Assembly: GCA_949825025.1 (NCBI GenBank)
Contig: OX463786.1
Span: forward strand, 8,419,094-8,483,093
Reading direction: 5' to 3'
DNA length: 64,000 nt
From: Siphlonurus alternatus
Lineage: Eukaryota; Arthropoda; Insecta; Ephemeroptera; Siphlonuridae
The notes beneath the pieces are model-generated. The model searched no databases. It was not told the DNA's origin and worked only from the letters and a program-made list of their open reading frames with translations. Made by a program: the position numbers and the translations under genes. Positions 6,320 through 61,613 of the stretch are shown piece after piece. Positions within the stretch are counted from its first letter, which is position 1, and the number at the start of each line of letters is the position of its first letter.

Positions 6320-9300
6320 CTGCAACAAAATAGAAAAAAAAAAATTATTATACGAGTGTTTTTTTCTTTCAAAATGAAACAAAATTTAGTGAAATGATAT
6401 TCAATTACAGACAATTTTGAATCCAAAACTACTGACATTTTTTTTTAATGAAAAATCGTCTAAGCAATATTTATTTAATGCAAGAAAAGGACAGACAAGA
6501 CCCATAAAAACAGAAATTATCGAAGGGTGATAAATGCTATACAGTATTCAGAGGGGCCAGAGAGAAAAAAAAATATATATTGGCAGTCTTTTTCCCTGGC
6601 CCCTCTGAATATACAGTAGCATTTATCACCCTTCGATAATTTGTGTTTTTATGGGTCTTGTCTGTCCTTTTCTTTCATTAAATAACTACTGACATTAATA
6701 TTTAAATGTATGAAATATCTCACACAATACAATAGTTCTGTCCGTAAACCATAAACTGCAAGCAATCAACCTTATGTCTTAAAATTCAAGTACATATGAG
6801 TGCAGAAAATCTACACTGTTCAGGGTTTACACACAGGCCTTTCATACACCTAGAAATCCTAGCCTATACAAGAGCGCTCATTCAGACTGTACGTAGCACT
6901 GGAAAAAAGGGTTGTCTGATCCTGCAATATTAGCTACTGTAGTTCATTTTGGGGTGCTAAAGTTGCGGAAGTGTGAATATTGCCTTATTGGGAGAAAGGA
7001 AAAAAGGGGATATGGGTGGTGTTAAGAAAATAATTCTAATGCCTCCCTTGTATTATTTAAAGGACTCCGTGATTTCAGTGATTTTCTCTTCCTTGTGAAT
7101 GAATAAAACTAAGAGAAGCTAGGTATAAAATGAGACAATACTGTAGAAGTGAATAGGCAGCCATTCAAGAACATGGCTACAGGTAGGCAACTGTAGTAAT
7201 AGAAGCTTCAGGTCATCTGATTTTGTGCTGTTCCAATCTATCTATCTAAAGCCAAGACTATGTAAAAAAAAAAAAGAAGAAAAAACTTCAAAATTACTTT
7301 TTGGCATCAAATAAATTTTTTAGGGGAAAACAAGCTCTTGATTCATTATTAGAAGATCCTTAAATAGTCAAGGGGGGTGGGGGAGAAGTTGATTTCAAAG
7401 CAATAGAAGCTTCAAGTGTTCTCCGTCGTGAAAATTTTCTCCATAAGCCACCATGTTAGAAAAATTGAATTTTTTCTCAGTAACTATTAAAGCTATTAAT
7501 TGAAACCATTTCCTACCTCCCCATTTAGAGGTCTTCTGATAATGAACCAAGAATTTACTTTCCTCTAAAACTTTTTTTCAATACAAAAAAAAAAATAAAT
7601 AAATAAATAAATAAAATAAAAAATAAAAAAATAAAAAAATAAAAAAAAATTGATTTTTTTCTACATACTGTAGGTTTGGATAGGATAGGACGGTGGGAAC
7701 ACCGCAAAATCAACTGACTTGCTTGAAGCCTCTATACCTTTTATACTGGAAAAAAAAAATCTGATTTTCTAGCATGGTGGCTTATGGGGAAAAAAAAAAA
7801 AAACTGAAAAACACTTCCATCCTCTAATGGCCCCAGGCGTATCTACTACCCTAGGCCAGATGTACATACTACCCCTCTACTCATATTAAATCTCTTTGGT
7901 ACAACTCACAAGGTTAGCCACGGTGTCCAGCAGGGTTTCATCTCTCTGCCTGTCTCCCGAGGAATGTCTCAGGACAAGATGTTTGACGGGAGAGTCTCGA
8001 TGTCCCAGCAGTTTCAGTTCCCCAGACACGGATTTCAGTTCATCATGCACCCAGTGGCTGCACTGCTGTAGCTCCGAGAACATCGCGGGGTTCTTCTCAA
8101 TCAGGTCCAGGGCTGCGATCGAGGCAGCGGCAAGAAGTGGAGGTACGGACGCAGAGAAACAATAGCCTGAAACATTTTGAAACAGTTAGTTTGAATTAGT
8201 GGGAGGAAAAATGTTGCATTTTTGAGAAATTAACATGTCGTCACCTAAGAATGCAAATCACATAACTACATAAAAATTTGATGTAACTCTAAACCTTATC
8301 TCACTAGAACATAAGGGTCAAAGTTACATCAATTTAATTTTGTAGTTATGTGATTTGCATTCTGAGGCAATGATATTATGGACAGTCTGTATGAAATTTT
8401 GTCTTGCATAAATAAATAAAGGATACAAAGTTATATGTAACTCTGATTTTTTTTCAGATTTTTTCAAGTAAAGGAACTATATTTAGCTATGCCCTTTGAA
8501 GGTATAGAGAACCTCGTTAATTCTGTTTAGTTTTTGTTTTAACTCTTTAAAATCCGTAAAATCATGCTGCAAAACGCTGTGATATCATAGTTATGTAATG
8601 CCTTTTTCTACATTGGTATTAAATATTTACATGACTATGTATGATGTAGAGCATTTTGCATGACAATCTAAATAAAATAATAATAGTAATATGTAATAAT
8701 AAAATTCTGAAAAAATAAAAATTAAAAAATAAGAGTACATAACGTGAGATGCAATACAGTAAAAAAAAAAAAAAAAAAATCATGCAAATGGAGTATCAAC
8801 CTTATTTATTTTTATTATTGCAGAAATGGATAGTAATGCTATTGTGATTTTTTTCCGATTTTTTACAACCTGGGAACTATTTTTAAAGAATTATTGAAAG
8901 TTCTTTTTGTGACTTCACGAGGCGCTGCTCCTTAAGAAAAAGATAGGACTTGCTGCCGCGTGACGTCACAAAAAAGACTTTCAATAATTTTTTAAAAATA
9001 GTTCCCGGGCTCAAAAAAAGCTGAAAAAAATCAGGGTAGCATAACATTGCACCCTCTATCCATTTCTGCAATAAAAAAAATAAGGATGATACTCCATTGT
9101 CCATTATTTTTTGTGTACCTAGTCCGGAGAGTCGCTGATGTTCGACAATGAAGCTCGAGCCGACACAGAATCCTCCCACAGATCCGATAGCCCACTCCAG
9201 ACTGCCTGAGATCAAGTCAACCTCCTTCAGCTGCGAACACATATTGTTAAACTAGAGTGGGGCATTTATTTATATAGGATCAATAAATATTAGAAGATAA

Positions 9301-12300
9301 ACATTCATAAGTTTGCTTTTAACTGAACATTTGCCCCATAAAACATTGTGCAATGTAAAGAGAGGACAAATAGCACTATCAAATTATTCTTATAATAGCA
9401 AAAGTTATAAATACTTTTAATGGAGTTTAAATCTTCAGTGAATGCACTAGTCTGAAATAATAAAGCTATCTTGATGGTGGGCAACAATGAACTGTATACT
9501 GCATCTGGTGAGTGCAATTATACGCTTATTATGAGGCAACTTATTATTGCAAATGACTATGGTAGGCAGATAGCTCACTGTTCAGGATGAGGGACTAATT
9601 ATCATATAGCACTAATCTTATTTTCTATTCATTTCAATTTTCCATTTCAAATTATTATACTTATGGAAAATAAATCTTTTGGGGTATTTTTATACTTAAT
9701 GCATAGCATAGAGTATACATTTTTTATAATAATACACTGTACTGTATTATAATTATATCATGAAAATTAATGGGTGCGATTCACGAAGCAGTTAGCCAGG
9801 TTTCTAACTACATTTAGCTTAACCACGTTTAACTATACGTATTTTATGTTGTGTTAAACCACATAGTTAAACGTGGTTAAACTAAATGTAGTTAAAAACC
9901 TGGCTAACTGCTTTGAGAATCACGCCTAATAAATCCTGGTGCAGATTAACTTTACTTTAATTTATCTATTTTATTTTTAATATTTTGCCAACTGCATTGG
10001 TATATCTTGAATTAAACAAATGAAAGTAGCAGGTAGTATTTCTGGCATTTTAACTATTTACTAGGTTTTGGAAATCTCAATTTTGTTAGTATTGCTGTAC
10101 CACCATAAAAATAAATTGGAAGGGTGATTTATTTAGGAAAGATTGGGTAAGGGGTGAAAGGAGGAGGGGGTGGGAGTCGTAGAAAGTCTTTAGGAGAAAG
10201 AAAGCCAATATATTTTTCCTTATACCTAAAATCAATACAGAGGGTTGATACCCCTCTTTCCTTCCTCCTTTGGTGGCACCTCTACTTATCTTGCATGCAT
10301 ACCACATAAATTGAGGCATTTTTTATTATTACAGCATATTCTGCTATTGGCATAAGTATTCAAACTTACGAACAGTATTGCTACAGTATAACAAAATAAT
10401 ATGAATACGAGCAGCCATGGCCTAATTTAGATATTAGCTACAGGAGGCCATGGAAACCTATAGAGTTGTTTGCTGTTTTTGTTTACGAGGGAAAATAGCA
10501 TAGCAGGTATACGGACGGTCAGGAGGGTAGAAAAGAGAAAGTGGAGGTCCAACTACTATGGCATTAGATAGGAGAAATGATAAAAATAAATAGAAAATGG
10601 GAGTTTTGATTGTTCTATAATGATGGGATTTTTTTTATATACTATCGTTTATTGGCGTATTTTTAGAATTTTTTTAAACCTGATTTGTTTTGTTTAATAA
10701 AGTGAAAAAAAAAATACATAATTTGTTTATATACTAGTCTGTGCATTCTGGTCCTCCATAGGGCAGCCTAACTTACAGGGGCATGACGTCAGCGCAATCA
10801 GCTCTATAGCAGGAAGCCCTGCACACCTCTCGAATTCAGGGCACTTCTCTAAACCCCCGAAATTCTCACCGGCACATTGTAGTACTCCGTGAGTCCTCGA
10901 CCGGTCTTGCCCAACACTCCGAAGGAGATCCCCTCGTCTAAAAACATCCTCAGCTTGTACTTCTTACGCAGCTCCACCAGTTCTGGCAGGGGGGCGATCT
11001 CTCCAGTGTTCATGTAAATTCCCTCTATCACGAGAAATCGTCGAGTGGCGCGAGCTTTCTGCGGAAACTGTACGGTCACAAACACAAACATACAAGTTAG
11101 TAAAGAAGTAGATAGACAGGGAGGAAGTTTCCTTGTTGGTTTTGGAACCAGTGCAACATGAGAAAGTAAGAAAGAAAAGAAAGCATAAAACAAGTACGTT
11201 AATAAGGTATAACCCTTGTCTGGAATAATGACCTACCTGTCTACAATATCGTCTGATATATCAAGTGAGGGCAATGAACAACCTGCATGAAAAAATTTTA
11301 TTGCAAAAATGAATAGAGGGTACTAAATTATGCTACTCTGATTTTTTTTTCAGTCCCAGAACTATTTTTAAATAATTATTGAAAGTGCGGCGACGCCCTC
11401 TGGAGGCGTCTATAGGTGTCTAGACCCAATTCTTTTTTTTTAAGGATTCAGGGGTGCCAACTAAAATTACAGAACTTTCAATAACTATTTAAAATTTAAA
11501 AATAGTTCCGGTACTAAAAAAAAAAATTGAAAAAATTCGGAGTAGCATAATTTGGTACCCTCTATTCATTTCTGCAATGAAAAATTTTCATGCAAGTGGT
11601 CCATTATGATTATGATTTACAGCCCATAATCACGCACCTGATATAAGCCAAATCTCGCTTTATATTTGATTTATTTTAATGTAAATTATCCTCTCTTTGA
11701 CTACGGAGCAAGGGATGAGACTGAACGTTCGGGAGTGAGGCAAATCTTCTAACAGGCAAGTGGAGCTTAATATGAAGGTTTTGCGTTGCCAAGTCGTTAG
11801 CTACAAATACTACAATTTGGCAACGCTGTATCATTAAAAGTTTCTCTCCTGCTATTGGTACTTCTTTAAAAAAATTTCCCGCTATTTTTCCTCTTACAAG
11901 ACCGGAAGAAGAAACTTTTTGATTCAACGCGAGCCGTGTAAAAGAGCAAGCGTTAGCCTTCCATATTATATAGTTTAGGGGGGTCTTCAAATAACCTAAA
12001 CTTGACCTAAGACTGTCTTAGCGCAACAATGAAGAATACACTAAGACTGTCTTAATTTTAGGATTGTTGTAATTTGTGTTCTTTGAAGACCCCCCAGGCT
12101 CCTTCACATGACCAACCTTGGCATCAACTTCAGCCTGCTCCATCAGCAGTCTCTCCAGATCCTCGACGTCGTTGTGTTTGAAGTACTTGACCTTGCTGCG
12201 AGAAGCGTCCAGTCCTTTCTGTATAGAGAAGTTCACTTTCTCATCCCTGCAACATCGTGGTATCACATTATCTGAAGTACCAGTACAATAAAAAAAAGTA

Positions 12301-13407
12301 AAATAGAATAAAGTACACAGTTTTGTTAACAATATCTGTGACAGCAAAAGTTGCCATAGACAAACAGTCACCCTCTGCTTGCAACTGACGAAGCATTTAG
12401 ATGTGAAACGTCTTAAGGTAAAGATAATACGCCCAATGTTAATCAAAATTCCATTCATGAAAATTATGAAAAAAATTTAAAATGTTCTCCTTTACATACC
12501 TGATCAGAAGGTAAAATATCAGGCATACAAAAACGAACTAGTTTTGGAGTTATTAATTTTTAAAGTTCATTAATTTAACATGGAGAAATGGAACTTCCAT
12601 AATAAATTAGTCAAATTTAAAAATTAATAACTCGAAAACTAGCTCGTTTTTGTATACCTGATATTTTACCTACTGATAAGGTATGTAAAGGAGAACATTT
12701 TAAATTTTTTTCATAATTTTCACGAATGGGCTTTTTATTAACATTGGGCGTGTTATCTCTACCTTAATGAAATGTAAATACTGCACATAATTTTTTAGAA
12801 AACCTGTGACCAAAAGGTTTTCACCTTTTCTGACTTTTTCGATTTGTAAGGCTTCGCTGGTTATTCTCTCTCCCCTCATTTTTATAACACTGTATGACAA
12901 TGCCCATAGTAAATATTTCTAATATTTTAAATACTTGAGAAGTGCAGTACAGCTATTACATTAGAAAATTTCCCTCTCCAGCTGAAGACAACTGTGTAAA
13001 TATTCAAACAATACATCAGCACGATCTGTTGGTTACGAAAATTTTGTAGAAAACACAATCAAACAGCACTCACGCAAAGATGATATCATTCCGTTTGGAG
13101 TAGGCTGGGATGGCACTGGCGATGGTAGAGAAGCCGTAAGAGTAGACGCAAGCCTCCTCAGTGTTGGTGAAGGACGCCAGCCTCTCCTCAAGTTCCAAGT
13201 GGACGTCTGTCGAGAAACAGTCCCATTAGACTTTCAGGCAACGTAGAAATGTGATAGTATTAAGATCAGTTATAAATTTGTAGCTTAGCAACCACTTGTG
13301 ATATGGTATTTTTAGTCCCTTGTTTGCTACCTTCATCCCATTACTTATAATATTGTGTGTATTTTGGGTTAAATAAATAAATAAAAAGTCAATAATAAAT
13401 AAATAGG

Positions 13408-13482
<75 letters not shown>

Positions 13483-16400
13483 ACAAAAAACAAACAAACT
13501 CAGTGATTACTCACCGACAGTGCCGTAGAAGCCCCTGGGTCCACATGATCCGACTCCGTACTTCGAGAGACAGTGCAGGGCTGCCTCCTCCACCTGGGGG
13601 CTCTCCACCAGTCCCAGGTAGTTGTGGGTGGCCAAGTTGAGGCAGCGCACGCCCTCCAGCTCCAGGTGCTTGCCAATCTGTGTAGCAAGAACCTGCTGTT
13701 AGTATATCACACGAAGGTGTTAAACCTGTCCTTGCCAATGGACAACCTGCATGAAAATTTTTTATTGCAGAAATGAATAGAGGGTACCAAATTATGCAAC
13801 TCTGAATTTTGTCAGATTTTTTTTTTTACTCCCAGAACTATTTTTAAAACTACTGTATTTTTAAATAATTATTGAAAGTGCAATAAATGCTGATGGAGGT
13901 GTCAATAGGCGTCTCGGTCCTATCCTTTTTATTAAAGATTCAGGGGTGCCAACTGAAATCACAGAACTTTCAATAATGGACAACATACATGAAAAATTTT
14001 TATTGCAGAAATGAATAGAGGGTACCAAATTATGCTACTCTGAGTTTTTTCAGATTTTTTTGAGACCCGGAACTATTTTTTAATAATTATTGAAAGTCCT
14101 GTGATTTCAGTTGGCACTCCTGCAGCCTTAATAAAAAGGATAGAGACTGGACGCCTATTGACGCCTCCAGGGGGCGTGTCCGCACTTTCAGTAATTATTT
14201 AAAAATAATTCTGGGTCTCAAAAAAATCTGAAAGAATTCAGAGTAGCATAATTTGGTACCCTCTATTCATTTCCGCAATAAAAAATTTTCATTCAAGTTG
14301 TCTATTAATGTAAGGCTTAATTATTATTTTTATTTCTTTATTTTATTTTTTCAGTGAATCAAAACCCTTTAATCTTAAATGTTACTCATAGGGGGATAGG
14401 TGGCAGCACCTGCGGTGATAGGTTTAAAATACGTCGAGCTGTATTTAATTTTTGTAATTATATAGTTTTTATAACTGAAATAGGTGTAAAATAGTGGCCT
14501 ATAGTTTTATGAATATTAAGTGCACAGATTAGAGTGAAAAAGAACAAGAAAAGTGTTAAATTAATATTGAAAAAGTGTTTTGTTTGTGAAGCTGCCAAAT
14601 ATGGCGGCAAACAATCTCTACTCCTGTGGAAATTTTGGGATGCCGTCTGCAATTCGGTATAACCATCACTTTCCACCTCCACCATGGGCACCTCCTACAA
14701 CAGGCCAACCTGATCTACAGCATAACTACAAAGATAGCATAAGTATTTCTCAAAAAAATCTTATAGAAAAAGATGATGGTAAAATAATTGACAACAATAT
14801 TTTTTTATCCATGCAAAACGACATAAAAAAATTACACTCAACTATAGAAGAAATTAAAAGTATCATTAGCAATAACACAAATATTAAAAGACATAATACT
14901 ATAAATGAAAGAAATAATGTCGTGCATTCATATGGAGAGCAGCCATCTTTTAAGAGTATTCATAATCCTGTCGTTTCGCAGCAAGAAAGCTCGCAGTCTC
15001 GGATCAACGTGCAATATCGTGCTCGTCAGCGCACAGACGAATTCCGTCAACCAGTGCCAAGGTCGGCCCGGCCACCTGCACGTGGACCGCCGCGTCACAC
15101 ACCACGTCATCATGAGCCTGCGGGTATTTCTCCTCTGCCACTGAGAAATTTTTACTCACCATTGTCATCGAATGTAAACAACATTCCACACCGAAACCTA
15201 CCTCAACGTCAACAAGCACCACGGCCTAATTCACGTGAGTTACAAACAAGAATTAGGTCACACAAAAACTTTAAATTTTCAGAAGAGAGAGGTGATTTGT
15301 TTGACTGTCCTCCGGGTATAGCTTTCGCCCACTCTACTGCAGAGGATCTGTGGATGGGACGTGGAGTCGCCTCTGTTGTTAAACGCAAATATGGCAAAGT
15401 CTCCTTTCTTAAAAGTCAGTTAAAAAAGAAGGGAGAGGTAGCAGTATTAGAAACTGAGGAGAGAATAATATTTTATTTAATATCAAAAACTACATGTAAT
15501 TCTTTGCCATTTATGGAAGATTTACGATCATGCTTAAAAAATCTGAAACTGGCCTGTCAAATCCTTCAAATAAAGCAACTAGCTTTACCTCGCATTGGTA
15601 GTAAGCGTGATCGTTTACCATGGGAGCAGGTTAGAGAAGAATTAATTGATATTTTCAAAAATATGGATATAGCCATAACGGTATATTATGACTGGAAACA
15701 CAAAAAAATGGAAAAGAACGAGGAGCAGACAATTCCAAAATCTCTTGCTGGAGATTACGTCACAAAAACTTTAGATAATCCAGAAGCAAATGTTTCATTT
15801 AATACACTGACACCTCAAATGGCTCTCGAAAGCAAAATTTCAACCTCTCCACCTGTTACCCGTCCTCCTGTCGTCACACATGTTGCAGAGGACATTGTCA
15901 AGCAGGTGGTGGTACCGTCAGCCGACCAGCAGCAGGCGACATCCACTGCCCTGGATGAGCCAGTACATAGGTCGGAGAAAAACGCTTTAGCCGTGTCCCT
16001 CGAAAGTGGAGACAAGGTAACATCACCAGCAGCATCGGCGAGAGCGGTGGGGACCGCCACGCACAGCCCGAGTCGTGTCACGACTGGGATGGGGAACACG
16101 CTGCCAGATCGTGGTTTGTCCTTGCTCCCCAGTGCTCCTCCATTCTCCCCATTTCAACAACTCCATAATAAATTTTCCCCAAGTGCACCGAATCTCTCAC
16201 AGTTCACACAAAATACTGGTGAGTCATCAGTTTTGTTATCATCTCTTTTTCCCGCAGTTGAAGACGAGAAAGAGGTTGAAAGGTACAATCAGGCAATTAA
16301 ATCTGCTGATTTAAATAAATCAGCCCTTGATGAATATAATGAATTTTGTGAAAATACATTAGCAGATGATAATGGTTTTGAGCGTAATGATAATAATAGG

Positions 16401-19400
16401 GTTCAGCATTCTCCTGAAACAATAAATCAAAACCACCATCGTCTTCGACCCCGAAATGTTGCTCAAAGTCAAAATTTTTCCCGCAAAAAAAGTCAGATCA
16501 AAAAAATTTAAGGGATAATTTAAGTGTAATTTCAATTTTGCAGCTAAATATTCCTGGCTTTAAATCAAAATTAACATTATTTGAATCATTACTTGAATCT
16601 GAAAACACTGATATAGCGCTGATATGTGAACATGGGCTTAAGGATGATGAATTAAATACAATTGTATTTCAAAACTATAAGCTAGTAAGCTCTTTTTGTC
16701 GCGCTTTACAAGTAAAAGGAGGGGTAGCAATATTTGCTAGAAAAGAGATGAATATTAGTAAAATAAACATAGAGTCAATAGAGTCATGTTTTGAATGCTG
16801 TCTTGCAAAATTAAAAATTAGTAAATCACAGAGCATATTTTTTGCATCTTTATATAGGTCCCCGAAATATTTCAAAAAAGGTGTTTTGTGTATAGAAGAA
16901 AAGAGTATTGATAAATTTTTAGATTGTTTCGAGGATATGTGTCTTAAAATTTTAGACAAATGTAAAATAAATGATAAAATAATATTAGGTGGAGATGTAA
17001 ATATCAATATTTTGAAAACAAACAATGTCACAAATCGATATATGGACTTACTGCAGTCATTTTCTTTATATATTATAAATCAGCTTCCAACCAGAGTAAC
17101 TAATGAAACTGCAACATTAATAGACCATATAATAACAAAAAATACAGAATTTGTTCAACAATATTTTAGTAAAAAAACTATTTTATCTGATCATAACTAC
17201 ACTGTTGTTAAATTCAAGTTTAGTTCAATTGATACAATAAAGCACAGTAAAATTGTTACCAGGCTAGTCTATTCCCCATGTTAAATATGTCGTCAAGATT
17301 GGTTGCCTGCTTTTAGGGGTTATTCAAACTTTTCTACCTACTCTGTAGATGGAGTTACCGTCAGATTCTGTCGCAGGTGGTAACCACATGCGACGGGGGA
17401 GTAGAGGTGCATCATCCCCAACTTGCGCTGAGGCCGGGGGGTACTGACCGTGTTATTCTCCGCTCCCGCTTGTTTGTTTAGTAAAGAAAAAGGAAGAAAA
17501 AAACATTCATGCAAGCCATTAGCTGTCAAATCTAACCACAATTTATGATATCCCTTTTTTGACGAAATTAATTAATATATCTACGATATTTTTTTTATTA
17601 AAATCAGGCGCAGAATAAAAAAATAATGCCAGCCCTTTTTTAAAACTTTCAATACGATGCTCCGATCGCATACATAGAGTTAATATTATCGCATAAAAAA
17701 AAAGTGGAACGAGTGATTCCACAATTGAAATGATGAAACAACTCCAAGTGAGTAAAAAGGGGGTCAAAATTGTTGAGTGCGTTGAAAATTTAATACGAAA
17801 ATACGATAAAATTCATGAAGAAAAACTACCCTGAGCTTTATTCTCACGCCCACGTTTATACTTAACAAGAGAGCATATTTTATGATTACATAAATAATGT
17901 TGGCAAAATCATAATAAATATATTATATATTTTTTTATAATAATTGTATTAATTATAAAATGTTACTTTTACTTTTTAAGCAAACTGTCCTTTGTCTCTA
18001 TGTTGTATAATGTAGAGCCACAACAGAAATAAATAAATAAATATAATATCTATCAGCGCGTGTATATTGAATTCACGGTGGCAGATGATAGCCTCTGATG
18101 GTAATTTTTAAACGAACAGTAAGCTACATCAAATTTTTTTTATTACATTTTATTTTATTAAAATTAAATAATGAATAGAATAAAATAATCATTTGTTATA
18201 AAAATATTTCAAAATTCATAAATTATAACTTTATATATTTACTTATAAGTCTTATATAAGTATAATTATTAGAGCGCGGAAAAAAGTCAAATTTTTTTCG
18301 AAAAATAGGCGCCTAAAAAGTCAACTTATTTTTGGAAAAAAGTCTACAAAAAAGTCACTCGTTTTATAAAATAGTCCATAAAAAATTCACTTTTTTTTTT
18401 TTTAGAAACTGCAGCAAAAAGGCGTTTCTAAAGTGCTATTTAAAAGTTGTTTTTTTATATTTCTTTACACAGACTGAAGTCTTTGTTTCTTTGCTTCTTT
18501 ACTTTTTTTTTTTTTTTTTTTTTTTTTACAATATGAAAAAAAGAGCTGAAATGCACTAAAAATATGTCAAAAAGTCACAAAAAGTCATCTTTTGCCAAAA
18601 TAGTCTAAAAATCCAAAAATAGTCTAAATAGTCTTTTTTTTAATAGGCTCATTTTAATCCACTTCCGGAGATCGGTGGATATCCTAAATGACAACAAAAT
18701 AGTCCTCATGTGCACAAATAGGCAAAATGACTTTTCCGCGCTCTAATAATTATATACTTTACTATACTTATAGCAAATAAACTTTTTAATTTCTTTCTAA
18801 AATAGTATCACATCTTGTTTTTTTTTTATTATTATTATTTAGAATTTTAAAATATTTTAAATTTAAAATAAATATAATGAAGTAATTTTTTTATTTTTAC
18901 TAGCACGCTCATTTGAGATCTTTTGATACGTTGATCCGAAATCATATATATATATATATGTAAGCAGAAAAGTACTCAGTTCTCGAGTTCACAGTTCACA
19001 TGCGTTTTATATATACGCATTTTTTTTTATGTTCTGGCAGGGTAAAGAATCTTCGGTCAGTTTTCAGTCAGATCCCCTCGAGCGCTTGCCCCCCTCCTCC
19101 TCTCATTCTTCAGTCCGTAGCGACAAACTACAGCGCCCCAACCTCGTTTGGTTAATTTTTAAACCTCTTCAACCCCTAAGTGTTAAATGTAATGACAGCC
19201 TGCGCCATCTAAAAAGGAGGTAGAACCCTAGATCAGTGACGACAAAAATCCCTATAGCTCTAGAGTTATAGGTATTCTTTATTATATGTTGTTACTTATA
19301 CAGTTAGAAATTTTAGCCAAGAAAATTATGAATACTTGTTTAGAATGTTAATTAATGAAAATTGGTTAGAAGTATTAAAGCCTGAATTAAGTATAGAAGA

Positions 19401-21722
19401 AAAATGGGAAATATTCATTAATATATTTTTGTTTCATTTCAATGAAGCATTCCCCAAAAAAACAAAAAAAGTTGATATGTGTTTAAATAAGCCAAGTTGG
19501 ATTAAAAATAATCCTCATTTAGCAGTAGAAGGGAAAGTGTTAAAAGAATTATTTATAGAAGCAAAATATATTAATCCTGACTTAATGCCAGAGTACAAAA
19601 ATAAATTAAAAATACATAAACAGAAAATAAATAAGGCAATAAAAGCTGAGGGTGACATTGAAATAAATAAAGCTGATAATAAAATAAAAGCTGGATGGAA
19701 AATTATAAAAAGTAAATGCACTCTCTCAAAAGTAAATAATAATAACAATAATTGCGTTATAGAAATTACAGTTGATGGTGAGCCAGTATCATCTCCTGCT
19801 GAAATAAGTAACATTTTAAATACCTATTTTGTTAAAACAATTGAAAATTTAATTTCTGAGAATTTTTCTAATACCTTTAAATCTATTGATAATCAAAATT
19901 TCATTCATTTAGAAACACAGCAAAAATTTGAATTTCAAAATATTGACTATTTTAAACTGTTACAGCATATTAATAACCTGCCAAATAAAAATGCGGCAGG
20001 ACCAGATGAGATACCGTATACGGTAATAAAATACTGTAAAAAATTATTAACAGTTCCTTTAACATTTCTCATTAATAACTCCATTACACAGGGAGTATAT
20101 CCTAAAATTTTAAAAAAATCTATTGTCAATCCATATTTTAAAGAGGGTGATAAAAAATTAATAACTAATTATAGAGGCATAACTAAATCTTCAGTGTTTT
20201 CGAAGTTATTTGAAAGTGTTTTGGATGAACAATTAACAAATTATAGAATAGAAAATGACCTTATTGCACAATGTGAGCATGGTTTTGTGAAAAATAGATC
20301 CACTACTACTGCAGCCTTTGATCTTTTAAGTACAGTATACTCAGCCATTGACAATAAAAAATTTTGCATTGCTATTTTTTTTGATTTATCAAAAGCTTTC
20401 GACTCCCTAAACAAAAAAATTGTAATTAATAAATTGAAAAATATTGGGGGCGTTGAAAACAGTTTAAAATTAATTGACTCATATCTCTCTGATCGGCAGC
20501 AATATGTTGAAATCAATTGTGTTACAGACAGCAAGAATTCTTTGGTTAAATCTGATATCCTACCCCTAACATTAGGGGTTCCGCAGGGGGGAAAAATTTC
20601 TCCAAGCTTATTTGGTATTGGAACAAATGATATTTTCAATCATATACTAAGTGCTAAAATAATTAAATATGCGGATGATACAACAGCAGTTATTGTTGCC
20701 GATACGGAAGAAGAATTATTATTAAAAACAAAGCAAACTTTATGTGATATGAAAAAATGGTGTGATAGCAATCAATTAGTATTAAATGATAAAAAAACTG
20801 CTTTTATTCAATTTCACTCTTACAGAAATATACAGTCTCATAGTTACTTACTTAAATTAAATAATAACGCTCAATCAATTAAAAGAGTCGAATATACAAA
20901 ATTCTTAGGATTTAATATTCAGGAATGTTTGGACTGGAAGACACATATTGATTATGTTATAAAAAAAATAAACTCAGCAAATTTTGTACTTTTCTCCATC
21001 AGGGACCATGTATCAATTGAATCTCTTTTCTCAATTTATTATGCTTATGTTTATTCGCATTTAACTTACGGTCTTATTTTCTTTGGAACTGATAATCAAT
21101 CAATATGCAGGCTTTTTATTGCACAGAAACGATCATTAAGAACAATGCTGAGATTTAGGAAGAGAGATTCATGTGTATCGCATTTTAAAAGACACAATAT
21201 GCTAACGTTGCCTTCATTGTATATTTTAAACAGTGCACTATTTAGAAAACAGCATTCTGAATTATACGATCATAATCAGCATTCATATGAAACAAGAAAC
21301 AGAACAAAAACTGTAGTAGCTAATCACAAATCAGCTTTATTGGAGAAAAGTCCTTTATATCAGTCAGCTAAAATTTATGACTTTTTACCAGCATGTATTA
21401 GAAACATTGATAGTCATAAATTGTTTAAAGCAAAACTGAAATCTATCCTGATAAAAAGAGAATTTTATTCAGTGAAAATGTTTTTTGCTAATAAGCTACC
21501 TGAAAATTGTCTTGTAGAGTAAATAATTGTAAACTTGATATTATAATGTTTCAGTATATAGTGATGACATAATATATATGGATCTTTATTGTAATATATG
21601 ACTCTTAAAATATTGTAATTTTGTATATAATTTATTTTAAAGAACTTTGTTTGCATTGCTAATGTTGTATAGTTTTAGGAATGACGTGATTTATGTTGTA
21701 TTGTACAGCCATTAATCAAATA

Positions 21723-21756
<34 letters not shown>

Positions 21757-30117: not shown

Positions 30118-30530
30118 AGTTGTAAAATGTTGTTCAAAGAGCTAAACATATATTCTACCATTGCCAGCTTTGTATATAGCTCAAGTATTAATGTTTGTTA
30201 AAAAGAACCCGCATTATTTTGAAAAATGTAAATTCAAGCATAATTATACTACACGGCATAAAGATAATTTTGTACTCTCACGCCGTAGAACAACAGCATA
30301 TCAACAAGGACTACTATACAGTGCACAAAAATTCTTTAACCATATCCCTATGTACATAAAATGTGAAAATAGTTTGCCCATGTTTAAGAAGAAAGTGAAA
30401 GAATATCTTCTTCAAAAAGAGATATACAAGATGGACGATTTTTTTTAAGACTGAAATGAATTAACCACCATTATTTATGTATGTATTATTGACTTGTCTT
30501 TATGGAAGATTAATAAACTTCTTATTTCTT
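30118..30530 (+). pseudogene. LINE ORF2 C-terminal fragment and 3' UTR
   Basis: A 5'-truncated tail: LFKELNI, then after a frameshift near 30147 LPLPALYIAQVLMFVKKNP, HNYTTRHKDNF, GLLYSAQKFFNHIP, FKKKVKEYLLQKEIY and a stop at about 30448. This matches the post-RT region of jockey/CR1-like LINEs, a different family from 14385-21755. The 3' end has AATAAACTTCTTATTTCTTA. Confidence 0.75.

Positions 30531-41105: not shown

Positions 41106-61613
<20,508 letters not shown>

Follow-up and report, generated by a model that had tools for sequence, protein, structure and literature searches.

A LINE and its neighbours in the window

The window, that is, the whole stretch of 64,000 nucleotides that was analysed, carries on its forward strand an element that, judged by its sequence, is a LINE (non-LTR retrotransposon), with a reverse transcriptase (RT) of the non-LTR type and an AP-type endonuclease (EN) ahead of it (Table 1). 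In this copy ORF1 is still open and ORF2 is interrupted by an insertion. The two frames overlap at 16418-16511 in the -1 register, with the A-rich runs CAAAAAAAG and CAAAAAAATTT. ORF1 residue numbers are those of an earlier sequence-only reading of this DNA, counted from the TTG at 14580. Related loci of the same genome carry L numbers, the window's own being L170.

Table 1. Features of the LINE copy in the window
Feature	Position	Strand	Remarks
LINE ORF1	14571..16511	+	646 codons stop to stop; 636 aa from the first ATG (14601)
N-terminal amphipathic helix stretch, probable coiled coil	14778..14930	+	judged by eye from sequence
Arg/Pro/His-rich basic linker	14928..15266	+	pI 11.9, net charge +13
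TARG1-type macrodomain	15258..15686	+	ORF1 residues 227-369 counted from 14580
Arg261 = human TARG1 Ala42	15360..15362	+	Arg in 33/33 LINE loci
Lys303 = catalytic Lys84	15486..15488	+	equivalence to human TARG1; 33/33 loci
Lys342-Arg343 = human Gly123-Leu124	15603..15608	+	altered pocket loop
Asp344 = catalytic Asp125	15609..15611	+	equivalence to human TARG1; 33/33 loci
Variable Ser/Pro-rich linker and C-terminal segment	15687..16508	+	by eye recognisable in L173, L200, L201, L202
ORF2 N-terminal part, AP-type endonuclease	16418..17284	+	Pfam Exo_endo_phos E 1e-4, 22.6 bits (cut-off 24.5, just missed)
2029-bp insertion (17260-19288) in ORF2	17253..19295	+	7-bp target duplication TTGTTAC (17253-17259, 19289-19295)
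ORF2 C-terminal part, reverse transcriptase	19264..21522	+	RVT_1 E 3.4e-26
(TAT)n microsatellite 3' tail	21726..21754	+	

Stretches resembling the N-terminal amphipathic helix were also seen by eye in the ORF1s of other families. The nine ORF1s scanned gave no Pfam match to RRM, CCHC, PHD or the SGNH esterase domain. The C-terminal linkers of the L175, L177, L179 and L188 ORF1s contain in-frame tandem repeats of about 15 residues (for example SVNDGTTPGEESGLA and VSVNNGRPAEEVPAL), whose number, by eye, differs between L177 and L179.

The best PDB match of the window RT is the RT of the R2 retrotransposon, and its database relatives are ORF2-type proteins with EN and RT, many of them carrying PF03372 or PF14529; insects are named among their sources, which points to an arthropod genome. 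No Pfam match to RNase H was found in ORF2, which fits the Jockey superfamily (CR1, L2, Jockey, Daphne, Crack). The site occupied by the insertion is uninterrupted in copy L171, which has a stop in the examined part of its ORF2, and no terminal inverted repeat was seen at the two ends of the insertion. In L200 and L201, EN and RT share an uninterrupted frame, 909 and 913 aa long, respectively. The window contains no further copy of ORF1, EN or RT.

The LINE is located upstream of exon-like pieces on the reverse strand (7886-13825), which read like what we take to be serine palmitoyltransferase subunit 1; none of the three that were scanned matched a Pfam model. On the forward strand, 42388-57835 contains exon-like segments of a flavin amine oxidase, which is probably a polyamine oxidase; Pfam Amino_oxidase matches the part at 55537-55980 (E 1.4e-7) and, below its cut-off, that at 42388-42672 (E 0.0046). 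The stretch 30146-30448 (forward strand) resembles by eye the C-terminal end of another LINE ORF2, with no Pfam match, and 44379-45281 is repetitive and, by eye, has open frames rich in Cys, His and Met on either strand (HPDA..., GCASGC...). Neither Rfam (gathering thresholds) nor ARAGORN detected anything within the window.

A LINE lineage with a TARG1-type macrodomain in ORF1

The sequence-only reading had placed a TARG1/OARD1-like macrodomain at residues 229-371 of ORF1, and profile searches bear this out to within two residues. Pfam Macro matches the window ORF1 above its cut-off (E 5e-6, 26.9 bits, cut-off 22), and the best phmmer match in the PDB is human TARG1 (4j5r, E 5.9e-30), which covers the whole domain (residues 8-150 of a piece starting at 15237, equal to 230-372 of the frame from 14571 and to 15258-15686); the next PDB family reaches 6.1e-5. 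The motifs that had been named are in place (GDLF at 238, GEVAVL at 285, FYLISK at 298-303, PRIG at 337, and DRLPW at 344). The alignment with human TARG1 is gapless, with 60 of 143 residues identical (42%). A chance match was rejected, as the alignment scores 283 against at most 53 for 500 shuffles of the piece and a frame as long as ORF1 is expected by chance at the local GC content with a probability of about 1e-19. An AF2 model predicted from an 84-row alignment (pLDDT 88.3, pTM 0.84) superposes on TARG1 in Foldseek (4j5s, TM 0.97 by target), a result that is not independent of homology because the 84 rows are TARG1-like relatives; the single-sequence AlphaFold model has a pLDDT of 44.5. 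By homology and fold, the domain is a macrodomain of the TARG1 type.

We searched the genome (456 Mb, 102 contigs) with ORF1 and obtained 354 candidates, 69 of which were scored, all with E < 1e-46. Among these 69 scored loci of the 354 candidates, 65 have no stop within the match and 39 have an open frame of 789 aa. The DNA of 33 of the 69 (L170-L202) was examined. All 33, on 10 contigs, carry the macrodomain with EN behind it (30 of 30 for L170-L199, three of three for L200-L202). The RT core is present in 10 of the 11 loci whose DNA reaches far enough (the window, L173, L175, L176, L177, L181, L184, L188, L200, and L201; the RTs of those from L173 to L188 were read through the adjoining stretches L203-L205 and L209-L212). 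The exception, L202, has no RT match past residue 176 of the RT piece. In L171, L172, and L174 the first 230-236 residues of the RT piece match and the examined DNA ends inside it. The arrangement first read in the window, a macrodomain captured by a LINE and positioned in ORF1 ahead of EN and RT, thus recurs at the loci examined, with EN in 33 of 33 and the RT core in 10 of 11. One animal genome has a LINE lineage whose ORF1 includes a TARG1-type macrodomain in each of the families examined.

The window family itself consists of three copies that are 98-100% identical in ORF1, the two others (98-99%) being located on other contigs and having the same 646-aa open frame, which suggests that it was active recently. 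An artefact, either a host gene mis-joined to a LINE by the assembly or a one-off fusion in the window copy, is barely credible given these two near-identical copies, the order of macrodomain ORF1 and EN in 33 of 33 loci on 10 contigs, and the RT core in 10 of 11.

Pfam Macro scores above its cut-off in only three of the nine ORF1s scanned. It misses L188, L177, and L200 or scores them below cut-off, and phmmer matches these to TARG1 at E 1.5e-26, 3.7e-29, and 1.1e-27, respectively. Routine Pfam annotation would therefore overlook many of these LINE macrodomains. The macrodomain was also searched for in protein databases, once with ORF1 as a length frame (206 candidates sharing words) and once alone (13 candidates); none scored E <= 0.001, which is weak evidence as exact 5-residue words were required. 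No relatives were found in viral contigs with the window macrodomain and RT as queries. A search of viral contigs with the LINE macrodomain alignment gave three loci; in the 10 kb examined, neither EN nor RT was matched significantly at any of them.

In a tree whose only other members are human TARG1 and 22 prokaryotic or phage relatives picked from 162 translated, the 17 distinct LINE macrodomains group as a single clade (ultrafast bootstrap 99, SH-aLRT 94, 200 of 200 bootstrap trees). A single clade (100/100) is also obtained for the RTs of six macrodomain families, now only 50-72% identical, when they are compared with 18 ORF2 relatives chosen among the 120 database hits listed out of 788. 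Most simply, the macrodomain would have been captured once, before the present families diverged. Candidate donors are the host, as in the sequence-only reading, and an insect RNA virus, in which case the LINE would have taken the macrodomain from viral RNA and not from a cellular TARG1 gene. A viral origin is compatible with either reading of function discussed below. The best viral structural match is VP8 of Kadipiro virus (BFVD A0A8E0KJF2, 36% identity, TM 0.85 by query, rmsd 4.6), the next viral fold matches include proteins of virga-, negev-, and flavi-like viruses that are named after thrips, and it has been published that insect LINEs captured a helicase from RNA viruses (PMC5563155). 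However, human TARG1 is closer, at 42% identity against 36% for VP8, and we regard a viral donor as quite improbable.

The trees of macrodomain and RT conflict with strong support. The macrodomain tree joins the window to L173 (100/99), and the RT tree joins it to L200 and L201 (100/100). Between the window and L173 the macrodomain is 91% identical, the endonuclease 47%, and the RT 52%; the window's RT comes closest to L200 and L201 (65%), two loci with which its macrodomain shares only 35-37% identity. Identity of the window and L173 ORF1 DNA drops from about 90% to about 62% at residues 360-400 (counted from 14571), directly behind the macrodomain. L181 and L185 similarly share 87% of macrodomain residues and 43% in the EN part. 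The conflicting trees and the identity drop show the macrodomain and the N-terminal half of ORF1 moving together, as one module, from one LINE family to another, which agrees with published reticulate evolution of ORF1 in the Jockey superfamily (PMC4120745).

Pocket residues and constraint

Residue equivalences to human TARG1 were taken from the model and chain 4j5r, which share numbering, and the pocket was compared across 33 of the 69 listed loci (17 distinct sequences), in one genome. The sequence-only reading had both catalytic residues kept. Lys84 and Asp125 are indeed present in all 33 loci, none of which lacks the macrodomain region, and His32, Gly43, Ala45, Pro91, Pro118, and Trp129 are likewise the same as in human TARG1 in 33 of 33. 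The pocket, however, is not that of a plain TARG1. Besides the arginine at position 42, Leu124 is replaced in all 33 loci (Arg in 32, Lys in one). Gly123 is retained in 28 and is Lys (codons AAG or AAA) in the window's branch, which comprises the five loci L170-L174. The loop up to Asp125 thus reads GSKRD in the window against GCGLD in human TARG1, and GCGRD, ACGRD or ACGKD in the sister families. Among other pocket positions, Asp20 is Asn in 22 of 33 loci, Asp37 is kept in 14 and replaced in 19, Cys33 is kept in 23, and Ser35 in none. The invariant or near-invariant positions are encoded by different synonymous codons: CGT, CGA, CGC or AGA for Arg42, AAA or AAG for Lys84, CGT, CGA, AGA or AGG for Arg124, and GAT or GAC for Asp125.

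Outside the LINEs, Gly123-Leu124 was found in 115 of 115 non-redundant relatives, a figure that is biased because the genome-scan pattern and one of the two viral-scan patterns contained GLD. Independently of these patterns, the pair is present in eight of eight phage or plasmid proteins (tblastn; eight fetched of 22 records hit) and in seven of seven viral contigs carrying the other pattern of the viral scan. At position 42, 31 of the 115 relatives have Lys or Arg, so a change at 42 alone is tolerated elsewhere.

Human TARG1 uses Lys84 to react with the distal ribose, and the intermediate is then resolved by residue 125 (PMC7050489, which gives residue 125 as Glu; chain 4j5r has Asp). Its substrates are ADP-ribose on acidic residues and on phosphate ends of nucleic acids, and O-acetyl-ADP-ribose (PMC7050489). 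ADP-ribose binding and activity are lost in G43E, I44E, and G123E (PMC5928194). Given the altered pocket (A42R, L124R/K, G123K), the catalytic pair alone does not imply that the window copy binds ADP-ribose. The window's G123K differs from G123E in that a lysine could hold phosphate and not repel it, and a loss of binding is therefore possible.

Nei-Gojobori omega was calculated for four inter-family pairs (L170-L173, L181-L185, L180-L185, and L175-L177, in this order), not all independent, as L180, L181, and L185 are related. Omega is 0.081, 0.075, 0.047, and 0.090 in the macrodomain, compared with 0.779, 0.488, 0.356, and 0.485 in the ORF1 N part, 0.418, 0.639, 0.535, and 0.678 in the ORF1 C part, and 0.317, 0.384, 0.185, and 0.153 in the endonuclease part, ratios that are rough because dS varies by segment (0.13 in the N part and 0.48 in the macrodomain of L170-L173), which recombination and base composition may explain. 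By dN alone, too, the macrodomain has the lowest value in each of the four pairs. Two further pairs were considered: in L175-L178 dS is saturated in the macrodomain, and L201-L202 are too similar to inform (two synonymous and no non-synonymous changes in the macrodomain). The macrodomain is the most constrained of the compared segments (N part, macrodomain, C part, EN). Since its constraint exceeds that on the endonuclease of the element itself, a passenger role is unlikely.

Possible function and relation to known systems

Taken as a whole, a single capture followed by the evolution of an enzyme-type ORF1 protein (ORF1p), whose macrodomain would bind and remove ADP-ribose, is in our estimation somewhat more probable than not. 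The short coiled coil would oligomerise ORF1p, the Arg-rich linker would bind LINE RNA, and the macrodomain would bind ADP-ribose and take it off the LINE ribonucleoprotein. Possible sites of the modification are acidic residues of ORF1p, ORF2p or host partners, and the phosphate ends of RNA or of nicked target DNA; the basic residues 42 and 124 by the pocket would favour a substrate linked to nucleic acid. In the window's branch the pocket changed again with Gly123 to Lys and may have moved towards pure binding. Invariance of Lys84 and Asp125 despite codon turnover favours catalysis, or covalent ADP-ribose chemistry, across the lineage; in the branch of the window itself, non-catalytic binding would be about as likely. 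The G123K change in five of 33 loci, the loss of Leu124 in all 33, the changes at Asp20, Asp37, and Ser35, the RT match of L202 that ends early, and the RNA binding of TARG1 outside its pocket speak against the enzymatic explanation. That the enzyme is simply dead, as G123K in the window copy alone might indicate, was dropped for the lineage as a whole, as 28 of 33 loci keep Gly123.

The macrodomain may instead be a pseudo-enzyme, an RNA- or PAR-binding and packing module of ORF1p for which hydrolysis is not the job, and in which the basic substitutions (at 42 and 124 throughout, and at 123 for the branch of the window) would strengthen binding to the phosphate backbone. Human TARG1 still binds RNA after G43E or G123E has destroyed ADP-ribose binding, and the authors' model assigns this activity to basic surface patches close to the pocket (PMC5928194). 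RNA binding alone could thus be why the domain was retained. The lack of Pfam RRM, CCHC or PHD matches in the nine scanned ORF1s, and the position of G123K and L124R in the catalytic loop, point in the same direction. Yet such a scaffold needs neither Lys84 nor Asp125, which are both unchanged across all 33 loci even though their codons vary synonymously, and the net charge of the window domain (+5) is not above that of human TARG1 (+6). We consider a pseudo-enzyme unlikely.

More specifically, the enzymatic explanation could mean that these LINEs have their own ADP-ribosyl hydrolase, essential for transposition, which would erase host ADP-ribosylation from the ribonucleoprotein or from the RNA and DNA ends of target-primed reverse transcription, with a pocket retuned by the two conserved basic residues. 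This proposal is tentative, and on balance somewhat doubtful. If true, it would represent a retrotransposon counterpart of the viral macrodomains, which are reported to counter PARP-mediated ADP-ribosylation (PMC5156301, PMC6521996). The presence of the domain suggests that these LINEs bind or erase an ADP-ribose mark used in host stress and defence. A role in counter-defence against PARPs draws on analogy and is therefore weaker than the enzymatic interpretation. Human L1 is restricted by ZAP/PARP13, which recruits active PARPs, but the zinc fingers of ZAP/PARP13 are enough for restriction and overexpression of PARP1 did not inhibit L1 (PMC4441479). The lineage opens two questions to testing, namely whether the LINEs of an animal are restricted by ADP-ribosylation and what part enzyme-type ORF1 proteins play in transposition. 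The sister families with Gly123 and the window's branch with Lys123 offer a natural structure-function series.

The available portions of PMC4245714, PMC11203168, and PMC8195603 mention no macrodomain in a LINE, and we found no report of one in a non-LTR retrotransposon in the accessible text of the open-licence literature; an earlier Repbase note is possible. TARG1 is described as only occasional in invertebrates, present in the fruit fly and lost in the honey bee, and few viral TARG1-like proteins retain all essential residues (PMC4245714). Compared with TARG1 (OARD1, C6orf130), a hydrolase of the ALC1-like class, the LINE domain differs in being embedded in an ORF1 protein, in its loop (GSKRD in the window, not GCGLD), and in the arginine at position 42, and its hydrolase activity is putative. 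Identity with the DarG antitoxin macrodomain was rejected: the LINE domain shares only 24% of its residues and scores far under the NCBIfam cut-off (33.9 against 250 bits); the PADLOC DarG model, which shows no cut-off, matches at E 2.3e-12. With the ORF1s of the Jockey superfamily the macrodomain LINEs have modularity and the exchange of ORF1 pieces in common, whereas types I-V, as described in the available text of PMC4120745, are without a macrodomain. The closest parallel in layout is the enzyme-type ORF1 (type IV, for example ZfL2-1), which comprises a coiled coil, an Arg-rich motif, and an SGNH esterase (PMC3905857); for this type the authors suppose, as a speculation, that the RNA is bound by positively charged peptides, the Arg-rich motif among them. 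The macrodomain ORF1 has a macrodomain fold and no esterase match, but the order of its parts is alike: a probable coiled coil, a basic linker, and a domain of catalytic type, with no structural RNA-binding domain found.
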